From Branchiostoma floridae (taxonomy: Eukaryota; Chordata; Leptocardii; Amphioxiformes; Branchiostomatidae): 64,000 nucleotides of DNA. Position numbers and translations under genes: made by a program. The stretch is taken from the NCBI RefSeq assembly GCF_000003815.2, contig NC_049986.1, positions 17,001,375-17,065,374 on the forward strand, written 5' to 3'. The notes under the pieces are model-generated. The model ran no database searches and was not told where the DNA came from. It worked only from the letters and a program-made list of their open reading frames with translations. Every line of letters begins with the position of its first letter. The stretch's first letter is position 1. This document shows, piece by piece, positions 21,501-36,600 of this stretch.

Positions 21501-24500
21501 TAACAGGAATGTAAACAGAACTCAGTATTGAAATTGTGTAGATTGTTTGTTTAATGCAAATGCAAGCATTTGAAAGAAGTTTTCCATCCAAGCTGAGCTT
21601 AGGGTAGGCACTACATGCATTTCTCCAAACCATATATATGGACACATTCTGGCTAGATCCAGACTTGTACAGAAACATTTTATGGCCTGCTTGTATTTTG
21701 TATGCTTGTAATATTTTACAATGTGCAGCATTTGCACCTCTGTCCCTGAATGAAATGTTGCAATATGTTCTCACAGGTACTACTTCCGATTCATCAAAAT
21801 ACGCCAAAGCGGGCCTTTCTTCCTGAGTTGGGGCCTCGTGTCCGTCGGTTACCTTTACTCGCTATACCTCCGTCTTGTGGTTCCCCTCGGAATCGTGACA
21901 TCCACAGAAACATGCCTCCTCACGGTCTTGATGGGCGCCATGCTCGCCGCGTTAACTTCAGCCAAACAGAACCCCGGCTTTATCAGCGGAAAAAACAAGT
22001 TAGGAGCTGACAGTAAACAAGGTCCTGCCTTCCCAAAAAATGGGGTAAAAAATACACACGAGGAGAGCTTGCAAGGTAATGGCATCCAGCTTAGGAGCTC
22101 AGCAGACAGAAACCACGCCATCTCAAATCCTGTGCAGAACGGTGGCAAAGTGGGCAAGGCAAGTTCAATACAGTCCACCGACGCCCCCTATCAGAATGAC
22201 AGCACTATGCAGTCCACCAAAAGGCCCCTCCAGAGGAATGGAAACAACAACAACAGGGACAAGCAGGACCTGGGTCAGGATGCAGTGATTGATGTAGAAG
22301 GACAGAGAGTCGCAGCTCAGCCCCTCTGGTGCCACGTGTGTAAGATGCCCAGGCCACCTCGAGCTGGACACTGCATGATCTGTAAGCGTTGTGTCTTAAG
22401 GCTGGACCACCACTGTATATGGTAAGTTCAAACCAGGGCTATTTCCAGGACCTGTCAGTCCATCCTAGGACACAAATGTCACCAGGTCCATCCAAAAATT
22501 GATCTTTATGACAAGAAATTGATGAAAATGTATTTTTCTTCTTATCAAAAATGACAAATACTAACAATATGGGGTCCATAACAATGATTGAGACATACAA
22601 AAATTTGATACTGGAGACAACCCTCAGGCACATTATGTCTGTTAGCATTTCTGTACCTTTAATGCTAATGATATCAACATTTTAGGAAGTCCAGCTGGCA
22701 CATATTTTGCAGTTTGTCATCTAAACTATAAACTAGAAGGTTTCAAACTGCCGTGCCTCCAAGGCAACAAAGAGAAAAGTCTGTTAGACTCTAAAATGTA
22801 TATTTAGAAGTTGTATATGGAAATCCTACTTGAGCTGAGGCCATGGAAAATACCACAAAACCACATTATGATTGTCATATGATGTCTGCCTTCAGGATCG
22901 ACCACTGTGTGGGGAAGAACAACCACAGGAGCTTCCTCCTGACACTGGTGCTGTTCATGTCGTCAGCTGGGTACGGAGTCTGGCTGTCCCTCAACAGCAC
23001 CTGTCCTGGCTGGTACAGCAAGAGGTGGATCCCCTACTGTCCTCAGGCGTACAGCACATCCAGGTGTGTTATACCGTACTGTCCTCAGGCATACAGCACA
23101 TCCAGGTGGGTTATACCGTACTGTCCTCAGGCATACAGCACATCCAGGTGGGTTATACCCTACTGTCCTCAGGCATACAGCACATCAAGGTGGGTTATAC
23201 CCTACTGTCCTCAGGCATACAGCACATCAAGGTGGGTTATACCCTACTGTCCTCAGGCATACAGCACATCCAGGTGGGTTATACCCTACTGTCCTCAGGC
23301 ATACAGCACATCAAGGTGGGTTATACCCTACTGTCCTCAGGCATACAGCACATCCAGGTGGGTTATACCTTACTGTCCACAGGCATACAGCACATCCAGG
23401 TGGGTTATACCTTACTGTCCTCAGGCATACAGCACATCCAGGTGGGTTATACCTTACTGTCCTCGGGCATACAGCACATCCAGGTGGGTTATACCTTACT
23501 GTCCTCAGGCATACAGCACATCCAGGTGGGTTATACCTTACTGTCCTCAGGCATACAGCACATCCAGGTGGGTTATACCTTACTGTCCTCAGGCATACAG
23601 CACATCCAGGTGGGTTATCCCTTAATGTCCTCAGGCATACAGCACATCCAGGTGGGTTATACCTTACTGTCCTCAGGCATACAGTACATCCAGGTGGGTT
23701 ATGCCTTACTGTCCTCAGGCATACAGCACATCCAGGTGGGTTATACCTTACTGTCCTCAGGCATACAGCACATCCAGGTGGGTTATGCCTTACTGTCCTC
23801 AGGCATACGGCACATCCAGGTGGGTTATACCTTACTGTCCTCAGGCATACAGCACATCTAGGTGGGTTATACCCTACTGTCCTCAGGCATACAGCACATC
23901 CATGTGGGTTATACCGTACTGTCCGCAGGCATACAGCACATCCAGGTGGGTTATACCTTACTGTCCTCAGGCATACAGCACATCCAGGTGGGTTATACCT
24001 TACTGTCCTCAGGCATACGGCACATCCAGGTGGGTTATACCTTACTGTCCTCAGGCATACAGCACATCCAGATGGGTTATACCTTACTGTCCTCAGGCAT
24101 ACAGCATATCCATGTAAATTGTTTGTAGTATTTGTTGGCAAATCTTTTCTACTGCAGAAAACAGCCACTGAAATACTGCAGATTATTGGATCGTAGGTTC
24201 CCATAGACCAATCTGATGGCTTGTTTTAACAGAAGTAACTAGTGATGAATGATTTTCTTTCCACTCCCCCCAGCTTTGCCCCAGCCTTCACTCTGATGGT
24301 CCTGACTACCATGTCAGGTATCCTCATTTTATTGGTCAATACATTTCTGTTTGCCAATCGGTTGGCTTGTTTCAAAAGAAGATCCAATAGTAACAGTTGT
24401 TCTTTCCATTTCCCTCAGTTCTGCCCTAGTCTTCACCTGCTGCTATTACACCCTGATGGTACTCACAGCCATGTCGGGTATCCTCGTCTCACAACTCATC

Positions 24501-24680
24501 AACATCTCCTGGAACATGACTGGCCGCGAAGAGCGCGTCGCCATCCGCAACAAGACCTACAAGGTTCGCTGCTGCGGCTTCTGTGTCTACACCGACAAGT
24601 ACGACAAGGGCTGCGTACAGAACTGGTGGGAGTTCAGCCAGAAACCCAAACTTGAGAAACCAGCAGTACAGATGGTGTGA
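18562..24680 (+). CDS. ZDHHC23: ZDHHC23-type palmitoyltransferase
   Basis: Multi-pass DHHC S-acyltransferase that transfers palmitate from acyl-CoA to protein cysteines. Coding exons: 18562-18704, 21224-21445, 21777-22421, 22896-23063 and 24419-24680, all joined in phase 2, giving about 480 residues (human ZDHHC23, about 409). Exon 1 has the family's N-terminal [14 protein letters not shown] and FCDCEDLD. Exon 2 has LEDRLRIPW and the first membrane segments. Exon 3 has a long Ser/Asn-rich insert, then the Cys-rich domain ([20 protein letters not shown]) ending in the catalytic DHHC. NPG replaces the usual DPG. Exon 4 has the third membrane segment and the luminal loop [10 protein letters not shown]. 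Exon 5 has the fourth membrane segment, then [13 protein letters not shown] (TTxE-like). Vertebrate ZDHHC23 (NIDD) associates with neuronal NOS. Oddities are the splice-donor minisatellite after exon 4 and a duplicated exon 5 start. Confidence 0.9.
18795..18997. repeat. MITE, TACTGTAAATGCAT-end family, copy 3
   Basis: The left end is TACTGTAAATGCAAAAACTT and the right end is AATGCATTTACAGTA. The interior has GGTGGCTGCTTCACCGCGAA and related GC-rich inverted segments. It lies in the first intron of ZDHHC23. Confidence 0.8.
20728..20835 (+). other. Candidate optional 36-codon exon of ZDHHC23
   Basis: An open segment preceded by CACTCCCAG and followed by CCAAG|GTGGAT. It is 108 nt and phase 2 at both ends, so it would fit in frame between coding exons 1 and 2. 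It reads as a basic, aromatic-rich peptide ([20 protein letters not shown] and more). Human ZDHHC23 has nothing here, and direct joining of exons 1 and 2 already gives an alignable protein, so this would be a cassette exon or a chance frame. Confidence 0.3.
23064..24113 (+). repeat. 42-bp minisatellite carrying a repeated splice donor, 25 units
   Basis: Units of exactly 42 bp repeat without indels: the CAG|GT junctions checked by position (23064, 23106, 23148, 24072, 24114) fall exactly on 23064+42k. Each unit contains the last 29 bases of ZDHHC23 exon 4 (from TACTGTCCTCAGGCATACAG through CATCCAG) and then GTGGGTTATACC. The first unit edge is the native donor (CAG|GTGTGT) and the last is CAT|GTAAAT. 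Because 42 is a multiple of three, the exon frame stays open as a [14 protein letters not shown] 14-mer until a TAA at about 23623, and three other frames are open as well. Confidence 0.95.
24208..24499 (+). repeat. 146-bp tandem duplication of the exon 5 acceptor and start
   Basis: Copy 1 (24208-24353) and copy 2 (24354-24499) both contain GGCTTGTTT, a pyrimidine tract, CAG and then related coding sequence. Copy 1 reads [18 protein letters not shown] and copy 2, the functional exon 5, reads [20 protein letters not shown]. Copy 1 has lost 15 bp relative to copy 2 and has no donor comparable to a normal exon end, so it looks like a decaying duplicate acceptor. If used, it would stay open through the intervening sequence but then enter copy 2 in another frame. 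Confidence 0.75.
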
Positions 24681-25039: not shown

Positions 25040-25740
25040 GACAGCATTCTTAGCTTAAGTACCAGAAAGGCATGTTCAGAACCAGGAACAGCAGCCTTGG
25101 TACTAGAGACAACATCTCTTAGTATGTGGATAGCATGTTCAGCACTAGGGGCAGCACCCATGTTACTGAAGACAGCATTCCTCGCATGAGAATATCATGT
25201 TCAGCACCAAGGACAGCAGCCACCTTGTCACTAGAGACAGCATTCCTAGCTTGAGAATAGCATGTTCAGAACTAGGCACAGCACTTTCAGCGCTTGAAAT
25301 AGTATTCTAAGCATGTGGATAGCATGTTTAGCACCAGAAACAGCACCTTGTCACCAGAGACAACATTCATAACTTGAGCATAGCATGTTTAGTACCAGGG
25401 ACAGCGACCATAGTACCACAGGCAGCATTCCTGGCATGGGGATTTCATGTTCAGCACCAGAAACAGCACCCTTGTCACCAGAGACAACATTCCTAGCATG
25501 AGAATAGCATGTTAAGCACTAGGGACAGCACCCTTAGCGCTAGAGACAGCATTCTCACCATGAGAATAGCATGTCCAGCAACATGCACAGCAACCATAGT
25601 CGGTAGCTTTCCTAGCATGAGGATATCATGTTCAGCACCACGGACAGCACCCTTGGCATAAGAGAGCATCCTTAGGATAACATGTTCAGCACCAAGGAGA
25701 GAACCAATTGAAATATACAGCATTGTAAGCATGGCTATAG
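25040..25740. repeat. Degenerate 62-bp tandem repeat, about 11 units
   Basis: The core ATCATGTTCAGCACCA with GGACAGCACCC and AGAGACAGCATTCCTAGCAT recurs. CATGTT landmarks fall at about 25071, 25134, 25196, 25261, 25323, 25384, 25446, 25508, 25570, 25627 and 25681, mostly 61-63 bp apart. It follows the ZDHHC23 stop codon by about 360 bp and may lie in its 3' UTR. Confidence 0.85.
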
Positions 25741-33600: not shown

Positions 33601-36600
33601 AACAAATGACATTGGTGTGGTCTGAACTGACCTGCTCCTGTGCCTCGGCCAGCTCTGCCTCCCTGACCGCGAGGGTCTCCCCCAGGGAGGTGATGGTGGT
33701 CTCCTGGTCCCTGATGGAACCCTGGGTGATACACCGTGTTGTATTCTAATTTATTACTAACCGTACATGATAACTGACTGACCTGCTCCTGTGCCTCGGC
33801 CAGTTCTGCCTCCCTGACCGCGAGGGTCTCCCCCAGGGAGGTGATGGTGGTCTCCTGGTCCCTGATGGTGCCCTGGGTGATACACTGTGTTGTATTCTAT
33901 ATTGACCGTACAGGATAACTGCACTAACCTGCTCCTGTGCCTCGGCCAGTTCTGCCTCCCTGACCGCGAGTGTCTCCCCCAGGGAGGTGATGGTGGTCTC
34001 CTGGTCCCTGATGGTGCCCTGGGTGATACACTGTGTTGTATTCTAACTAACCGAACAGGATAACAGACTAACCTGCTCCTGTGCCTCGGCCAGTTCTGCC
34101 TCCCTGACCGCGAGGGTCTCCCCCAGGGAGGTGATGGTGGTCTCCTGGTCCCTGATGGTGCCCAGCTGCCGGTCAGTCTGCAGCTCCAGCTCCTCCAGCC
34201 GCTGCTGAAGGTCAGGGATCACGTTATTCTCCAGCTCCAGACTGGACACCAGGTACCGCAGGTGGTCACCCTCTGGACAAATACAAGTGTAATATTGTAA
34301 TAAGAAATGGCAGTTAAAAAGTACCATCCTCCGTAGTGACCACAAGCAACTATGGAGAATGGTGCTCAGGGTTAGTAGTCAGATCTTATGACTCTGTTAT
34401 GGGTGTTGAATCCATTTTTTAAAGATTAGTTGTAATTTTCAAGGTAAATTTTACAGTGTCTCCTAGGTCTTATTAAACTCTCCCTATCTTGGAAATCTCC
34501 CAAAGTATCCAACACCGAGGAGAATAAATGTACAATCTGAAAATAGGGAGTTTACAGTTCTTCATATTTACCTTTTGAAACATCCCTTAGCTGTTCTTCA
34601 GTCTCACTTGTTGTGGTTTCCAGTTCAGTCACCTGTTCTTTCAGGGAAGACAACTCCCCGTCCCTTGATGACATCTGTATTGGAAAAAATGTTTTCCATA
34701 GTCAGCATACTCAACAAACAGCAAAAGAAAAATGAACCTATAAAAGTATAAAGGAAAAGTTATCATAGACTAGTATAGGGTATCTACTTTACTTACTTAG
34801 CTTATGATCACAATTGAATTATCACTACATCTTGTTAGTATCTAGTAGTCTCTATGTTCACTATCTAACAGCTTTAAACAAGCTGCAAACCTACTTGTTT
34901 TTTTAGGTCCTCAGAAAGAATCTTGGCATCTTCCAGAGCATGGGCCAGCTGCAGATTCTCCTTTTCATGTCTGCTTACCTCCACCTGAAGATAATGTACA
35001 ACAGGCTTCATTGTTATGATCCTACATGTATTTGAAACTGGAACATTACATTAGCTGCAAATAATAACTAGTACTGACGTGTGCCAAATGGCCAGTGTAT
35101 AATGAGTGCATGATGAGCAAAAAAAGACAGAAAAAAGGCACCAGAGAGCCTGCTATGGCTGCTACCAGATGGCCATGTATAAGAAAGCTCCTTTGTATAT
35201 TAAACAGCAAGTATACTACATCATACTTACAACTACTGCTGCTGGTCTGACAGGCTCTCTACTGACCTTGAGCTGCTCTTTCTCCTCCTCCAACCTGCTC
35301 ATCTGATGCTCCACCTCAAGCTCTTTCTCCAAGTACTCTTCTTTCAGGTTCTCTAACTGGGTCTGGAATGGGCAACACAGCAAACTGAGTCTAGTCTACT
35401 CCGCATAAAAATTCTTACATGCACATGGAGGTCCTGATATCAAACAAAACTTGCTAGGGATCCCAAACCTACACAGGTGCACCAGTTTTTCCCAACATAA
35501 AAGCTATCTTCCCCAAAACTCAAGACCACAGCGTGTCAAGGACAAAAGATACAAAAAAACTTCAGTAGCAGCAGTACCGAGGTTAGCCCCTAGGAGGCAC
35601 AAATTTTGTGCCCATAACATCATCATCATCATCATCAGTCGGCTGCTGTGCAGTCGGTCACGATTCTATTCCACCTCAGTCTGTCGGCAGCCAATACAGC
35701 TATAGCAGTGGGGTTCAGGTCGCCCTCCGCGTCCCCCAGCAGGTTTTGTATATACGTCAGGTAGTTCGTCTTCTGACGACCGGGGCGTCGTTTGCCGTGG
35801 GAAGGGACATACAAGGCATAAGTCCGCAGAGGCTCTTCTAAAGGCATTCTAAGAGCATGTCCAATGAAGCGTAATTGGCGTTGCCTGACTTTGCAGATGA
35901 GAGGCTGGGTGTTTGTCACTCTGTATATCTCACTGTTGCTAACACGCTGGAGACGCTTAATGTTTAACATGATTCTGTAGCATGATGTAGCAAACGAGTT
36001 TATCTTATTCTCCATGTCAGACGACGGTACCCAAGATTCACATCCGTATAAAAGCACTGGCACACAGGTAACATTAAAGAGCTTGATTTTTGTGGAGGTG
36101 GGAAGTGAAGTACTACTCCAGATCTTTTGCAGTTTCCAGAAGGCAGTCCATGCAAGAGCCCTTCGCCTAGTGAGATCGTTTTTACTGGATGCCATCATGC
36201 TACCCAGGTATCTAAAGTTGGTTACATTTTTGATTGGCTGGCCGTACACCTCCAGTGGTGGCTGCGGGCTGCAGTTGATGGTCATGTACTCAGTTTTAGG
36301 GACGCTGATGACCAGGCCCAGTTGTGTCCCTGCAGCAGCAGTTCTGTTAAGTTGTTCTTGTGCTTTGGGGATGGAAGACTCTAGCAAGGCGATATCGTCA
36401 GCAAAGTCCATGTCGTTTAAAATCCTAGCGGGATATCTTCTAGACTGACGAGGGTGAGTAACTATGCCAGAGTCAATATCTTCTGTCGATCTTCTCATCA
36501 GAAAGTCGATGAGCACAATGAACAAGAAGGGAGCAAGGACATCACCCTGCAATACTCCTGTGGTGACTTGAAATGGGTCAGAGATGTTACCATCCACCAT

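Follow-up and report, generated by a model that had tools for sequence, protein, structure and literature searches.

Minisatellites that extend across exon–intron boundaries, termed mirages, have been described in amphioxus in the Adh3, globin, troponin C and PGBD5 genes, the PGBD5 case having been added, and that of troponin C cited, in PMC3902484. As far as the available text of these reports goes, many mirage units, but not all, carry the AG/GT signals of a splice site, and regular splicing is reportedly unaffected in Adh3, globin and troponin C, whereas the globin authors considered that the mirage splice sites could yield alternative transcripts. In the case of PGBD5, a gene prediction placed an exon within the repeats, which was omitted by the authors as lacking transcript support (PMC3902484). 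The boundary repeats for which dimensions appear in the same portions of the literature have periods of 157 bp (BflGb9) and 150–160 bp (BflGb6), with unit counts of 3 and 6 in the two haplotypes of BflGb6, and of 2–7 and 3–6 in PGBD5. No literature pairing ZDHHC23 with amphioxus was found, and a word search of the multi-lancelet genome paper (PMC4284660) for minisatellite, tandem repeat and mirage gave no match.

Here we describe an array of this kind at the end of an exon in the 64,000-nucleotide stretch of Branchiostoma floridae DNA that was analysed as a whole (the window). We consider it very probable that the array is an amphioxus mirage, i.e., a minisatellite that spans a splice donor, arose by tandem duplication and is tolerated, with the first donor mainly used.

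Array and host gene

The preliminary description had named the host gene as ZDHHC23, and what was confirmed is membership of the DHHC palmitoyltransferase family, by the match of the joined exons to Pfam PF01529 (60.8 bits). Taken singly, the Pfam DHHC matches lie at 22321–22425 (43.9 bits) and 22897–23046 (22.3 bits, which by itself is below the cut-off). The former belongs to a predicted forward-strand exon (21777–22421) that holds the DHHC cysteine-rich core, ends in ..LDHHCIW with the donor ATG|GTAAGT, and is joined in phase by the next exon. That exon, with the repeated end (22896–23063, forward strand, 168 nt, numbered exon 4 in the preliminary description), finishes in AG and reads in frame into the predicted last exon (24419–24680, forward strand), which contributes the second membrane segment after the DHHC motif, the residues ..NMTGRE.. 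and the stop codon. Among eight matched PDB sequences, only the alignment with ZDHHC9 (8hf3_A) runs through the whole loop between the two membrane segments, with three one-residue gaps overall, whereas the other seven alignments stop before or within it. The loop is situated between two hydrophobic segments after the DHHC motif, but the earlier numbering of these as membrane segments 3 and 4 is uncertain, because hydrophobic stretches also precede the motif (residues 38–82 and 107–137 of the partial product); from general DHHC topology we take the loop to be luminal. A close paralogue without the array was not found among eight scored candidates, the best of which, the gene's own two exons aside, had E = 0.68.

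The repeat was defined by Tandem Repeats Finder as a 42-bp unit present in 25.7 copies at 23035–24112 on the forward strand, with 96% matches and 0% indels. Each unit consists of 29 exonic-type bases followed by a 13-base linker that starts with the donor (GTGGGTTATACC), and the resulting 26 junctions follow one another every 42 nt, in fixed register, from 23063|23064 to 24113|24114. A GT dinucleotide is present at 25 of these junctions (unit 25 has AT) and the full AG|GT at 23, the exceptions being units 21, 25 and 26; the exact sequence CAG|GTGGGT occurs at 18 of the 26, AAG|GTGGGT at three and TAG|GTGGGT at one. The first donor reads CAG|GTGTGT (23064–23069), and the internal donors 2–24 span 23106–24035, with the G of each GT at 23106 + 42n and AG|GT in 22 of 23, unit 21 having CAT|GT. 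The architecture reported earlier, a unit of 29 exon-end bases plus a CAG|GTGGGT-type donor repeated about 25 times in register, is thus borne out. Its start needs correction: rather than beginning exactly at the donor, the array begins inside the exon, 29 nt upstream by Tandem Repeats Finder or 35 nt upstream by the origin model preferred below.

Over the first 41 unit positions, units 1–25 carry between 0 and 2 substitutions and unit 26 carries 9. The most diverged copy is accordingly the one at the 3' edge (24085–24120, forward strand), which contains CAT|GTAAATT and would represent a remnant of the original intron start; the unit at the 5' edge has two substitutions, no more than unit 16. 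The units also carry private variants, which stand in an ordered pattern. When the array was searched against one genome (513,431,437 bases), the matches listed lay only at its own locus.

A typical Sanger read is shorter than the array, and the copy number, or the array itself, might be supposed to be an artefact of Sanger assembly and of merging two divergent haplotypes. We regard this as very unlikely in view of the ordered private variants and of the similar arrays at other loci, some of which have support from re-sequencing or RT-PCR in the published text available. The chromosome assembly does combine approximately tenfold Sanger coverage with haplotypes merged by HaploMerger2, according to the portion of PMC7269912 available, and because it is Sanger-based and haplotype-merged, the exact copy number is uncertain.

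Four possible products were compared by their Pfam DHHC scores: 60.8 bits for donor 1, 58.4 for donor 2, 48.4 for donor 4 and 51.6 for an exonic pseudo-donor. The product of donor 1 tops these scores, which makes donor 1 the preferred candidate for the ancestral exon end, by a narrow margin of 2.4 bits over donor 2; donor 1 is taken here as the authentic, predicted donor. The pseudo-donor belongs to a candidate older repeat copy within the exon ('copy 0'), the alignment score of which (37.5) was reached by none of 2000 shuffles but by 1 of 1942 real windows; this copy is not claimed.

The intron that holds the array also shows a single duplication on its acceptor side. An extra, diverged copy of the intron end and the last-exon start (24208–24326) aligns with its counterpart (24354–24486, acceptor ..CCCTCAG|TTCTGCC), both on the forward strand, with 90 identities, 27 mismatches and 16 gap positions, a score reached by none of 1000 shuffles. 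The frame of the extra copy is open from the donor phase, and six of the ten differing codons are synonymous (binomial p = 0.02 against an expectation of 25%, which does not allow for constraint on the source exon). Instead of being a dead copy, it may provide an alternative last membrane segment. Some 400 nt past the stop codon lies a degenerate 62-bp tandem array (25070–25669; 9.7 copies, 69% matches).

Boundary repeats elsewhere in the genome

A second donor array is found within the window itself, on the reverse strand (33626–34163), where Tandem Repeats Finder gives a 146-bp unit in 3.7 copies that repeats the end of a coiled-coil-like exon, ..GCACAGGAGCAG|GT[TC]AGT. In the genome at large, we surveyed direct copies of exon sequence within approximately 1.5 kb of exon matches to three families, namely DHHC (28 of 28 matches, of which five fell short of the family cut-off), ADH_N (20 of 28) and globin (10 of 10), a copy being counted only if it had E ≤ 1e-6 and included 8 nt or more of the match. 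Direct copies were present at 9 of 58 exon loci, the array locus included, and inverted copies at 1 of 58 (L024), and it is this asymmetry that argues against chance as the source of the boundary repeats. The 58 loci correspond to 45 gene-like groups, and the nine positives to seven groups, again with the array gene included. The rate over three families is biased upwards because the ADH and globin families served as positive controls; among the DHHC genes only, 2 of 19 gene-like groups besides the array gene were positive. A looser screen (48 loci, E ≤ 0.001) added L012, L052 and L054, all of which fail the stricter criterion and are not counted. Boundary repeats are apparently not rare in the B. 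floridae genome, as far as can be judged from a small survey in which the DHHC family was examined because of the array gene.

The globin loci can be compared directly with the published dimensions, as given in the text available. At L067, the copy of the 3' boundary of a globin exon lies exactly 157 bp away, the period reported for BflGb9, and at L071 three upstream copies of the acceptor side are spaced by 158, 155 and 150 bp, as in the range given for BflGb6. The ADH family provides two examples: L044 (G000:C6:27454842-27455066), an exon repeated independently at both ends, in 59-bp copies on the acceptor side and in 33-bp copies on the donor side, and L061 (G000:C2:5232121-5232285), with three upstream acceptor-side copies that are 82–83% identical. 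The donor array of L044 runs up to an N in the assembled sequence.

The two positive groups among the other DHHC genes differ in the boundary involved. In L017 (G000:C4:3455802-3458903), the end of the DHHC exon, TGCCCCTGGGTGGACAACTGCGTGG|GTGAGT, recurs many times, in units of 48 and 68 bp. On the opposite side of that exon, a long array of approximately 20-bp units of the ACAGGTGTGTGTTT type is observed. The second group is a single DHHC gene with acceptor-side repeats (L022, L026 and L030), in which L022 (G000:C3:22123836-22126988) has upstream copies of the start of the DHHC-core exon together with its acceptor, one of them shortened. A further DHHC gene, L031 (G000:C11:5643157-5646237), contains a 181-bp tandem pair that ends near the likely exon acceptor; it is not counted as positive.

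Origin of the array

The array would have begun with the tandem duplication of a short segment that straddled the splice donor, followed by expansion and homogenisation through slippage or unequal exchange. The founder segment was most likely 42 bp in length, taking in the last 35 nt of the exon and the first 7 nt of the intron, and would be composed of ATCCCC from the exon, the 29 exonic nucleotides and GTAAATT from the intron, with no indel required. With such a founder the last copy would be followed by GTAAATT, as is observed, and the proposed founder agrees with the repeat consensus at 36 of 42 positions. Of the flanks, which are the informative part, agreement is lower: the exonic part matches at only four of six positions (4.5% by chance) and the intronic part at two of five free bases (35% by chance), so that the intron part of the model is weak.

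A founder that was purely exonic, running from an exonic AGGTGG at 23023 to the true donor, would likewise generate a mirage, and in that case the repeated 'donors' would derive from Arg-Trp codons, compare the Rogers model in which new splice sites arise from exonic AGGT duplications. The form of the linker that has C as its last base (units 3–7 and 20) does align with the exon upstream of the array (GTGG---ATCCCC / GTGGGTTATACCC), with a score reached by 4 of 3935 GT sites and none of the 216 AGGT sites of the window, and the resemblance extends to the protein level (RW-IPY versus RWVIPY). However, the linker of the first unit is a poor match, equalled by 192 of 3935 GT sites and 12 of 216 AGGT sites; the majority linker, with T as its last base, scores 7.0 versus 11.0 and was not ranked; and such an origin requires 39 nt plus a 3-nt insertion. 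Nor is any such similarity visible by eye in L017 or in the second array of the window, and the more general proposal that mirages are AGGT-to-AGGT duplications was dropped on that account. We consider the exonic founder somewhat unlikely, and prefer the founder across the donor, with low confidence, because it is more parsimonious.

Use of the internal donors

When read in the frame of the exon, the array reads as a 14-residue block that is repeated with few changes. As 42 is a multiple of three, the first 14 donors are in frame, as had been predicted, and the frame remains open until unit 15, the first codon of which is TAA (23623–23625, forward strand), the stop that had been placed near 23623. 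The open frame by itself is not remarkable, because a 13-nt linker beginning with GT stays open with a calculated probability of approximately 0.65 and one period in three is divisible by three, which gives a chance of approximately 1 in 5 (0.65 × one third) for an open, in-frame unit. The four other donor arrays of the genome lose their frame in the first or second copy: L044 closes at once with TGA, L067 closes within the linker, the second array of the window has an in-frame TAG in its first linker, and L017 has TAA in the linker of the second copy.

Donor strength was assessed as the calculated pairing with the 5' end of U1. Donor 1 pairs with −7.7 kcal/mol, the commonest internal donor, CAG|GTGGGT, with −11.4 kcal/mol, and the variants AAG|GTGGGT and TAG|GTGGGT with −9.9 and −9.8 kcal/mol, respectively; the two exons upstream have donors that pair with −9.1 and −9.2 kcal/mol. 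Among the 3938 other GT sites in the window, 59 reach −7.5 kcal/mol. Judged by U1 pairing alone, the internal donors would beat donor 1, and on this measure they are plausible splice sites.

This strength is the main point in support of the idea, put forward in the preliminary description, of a length-variable splice-choice device, in which donors 1–14 would be variously used to add 0–13 extra 14-residue blocks to the loop and copy number would alter the protein. Further in its favour are the frame that is open for 14 units, set against the early closure in the four other arrays, and the retention of AG|GT at 14 of 14 proximal versus 9 of 12 distal junctions, a difference that is not significant (Fisher p = 0.085). 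Against it stand the published mirages, which reportedly leave splicing undisturbed in the text available, the likelihood of an open unit by chance, and the loss of DHHC family match that accompanies the extra blocks (2.4 bits for a single block). In addition, exonic-type and linker positions have changed at similar rates (12 of 696 versus 4 of 288, Fisher p = 1), with no sign of selection. While the frame arithmetic of that idea stands and the internal donors are plausible, nothing found shows a device, and we consider one improbable. The companion suggestion of a decoy or U1 platform, in which U1 would bind to intronic donors that are not spliced and would in this way affect the choice of donor, premature polyadenylation or the retention of the intron, appeals to the large number of strong donor sites spaced evenly along a single intron. 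Since the same sites would be expected of a neutral mirage, the sequence offers nothing past the sites themselves, and the initial 294 nt of the array fold worse than shuffles (z = +2.1) rather than into a special structure, this suggestion appears to us the least probable of the readings considered. A mirage that has become coding, such that the number of loop blocks varies by tissue and individual and an acceptor at 24274, with open frame, adds the alternative last membrane segment, is likewise hard to credit.

We therefore return to the tolerated mirage as the reading that very probably applies. Duplication across the donor would keep the original donor at the 5' edge, with every further copy following inside the intron, and because of this arrangement the array would have been tolerable from the start. 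By analogy with the published cases, splicing would take place mainly at the first donor. If splicing slipped to one of donors 2–14, the only consequence would be extra 14-residue blocks in the loop that follows the first post-DHHC membrane segment, whereas use of the donors beyond 14 would bring a premature stop. With approximately two dozen near-identical donors set at an exact 42-nt register, a natural gene here offers a ready test of donor choice, in which position is pitted against strength, and boundary repeats more generally bear on the origin of new splice sites and introns.

Some coding minisatellites vary in copy number, for example the mucin tandem repeats, and the array shares with them an in-frame 14-codon unit and a copy number that may be variable. 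The difference lies in the donor carried by nearly every unit, because of which the repeats would be intronic by default and untranslated. Like the AGGT-duplication cases of potato RdRp, ATP2A1 and fission yeast (PMC4974935, in the text available), the array multiplies AG|GT in a coding gene; unlike those cases as described there, its copies are placed at an existing donor and lie mostly inside the old intron, and no new intron is evident. The closest correspondence is with the mirages: a tandem repeat lies over a predicted exon–intron boundary of a lancelet gene, the units carry a splice signal, and the internal copies are alike while one edge copy, unit 26 at the 3' edge, has diverged. It has more copies than the globin (BflGb6) and PGBD5 mirages for which counts appear in the available text, and, unlike L044, L067, L017 and the second array of the window, its frame is open for 14 units. 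As a single case the array mostly extends a published phenomenon; it is a further member of the mirage class, and a large and unusually readable example of it.
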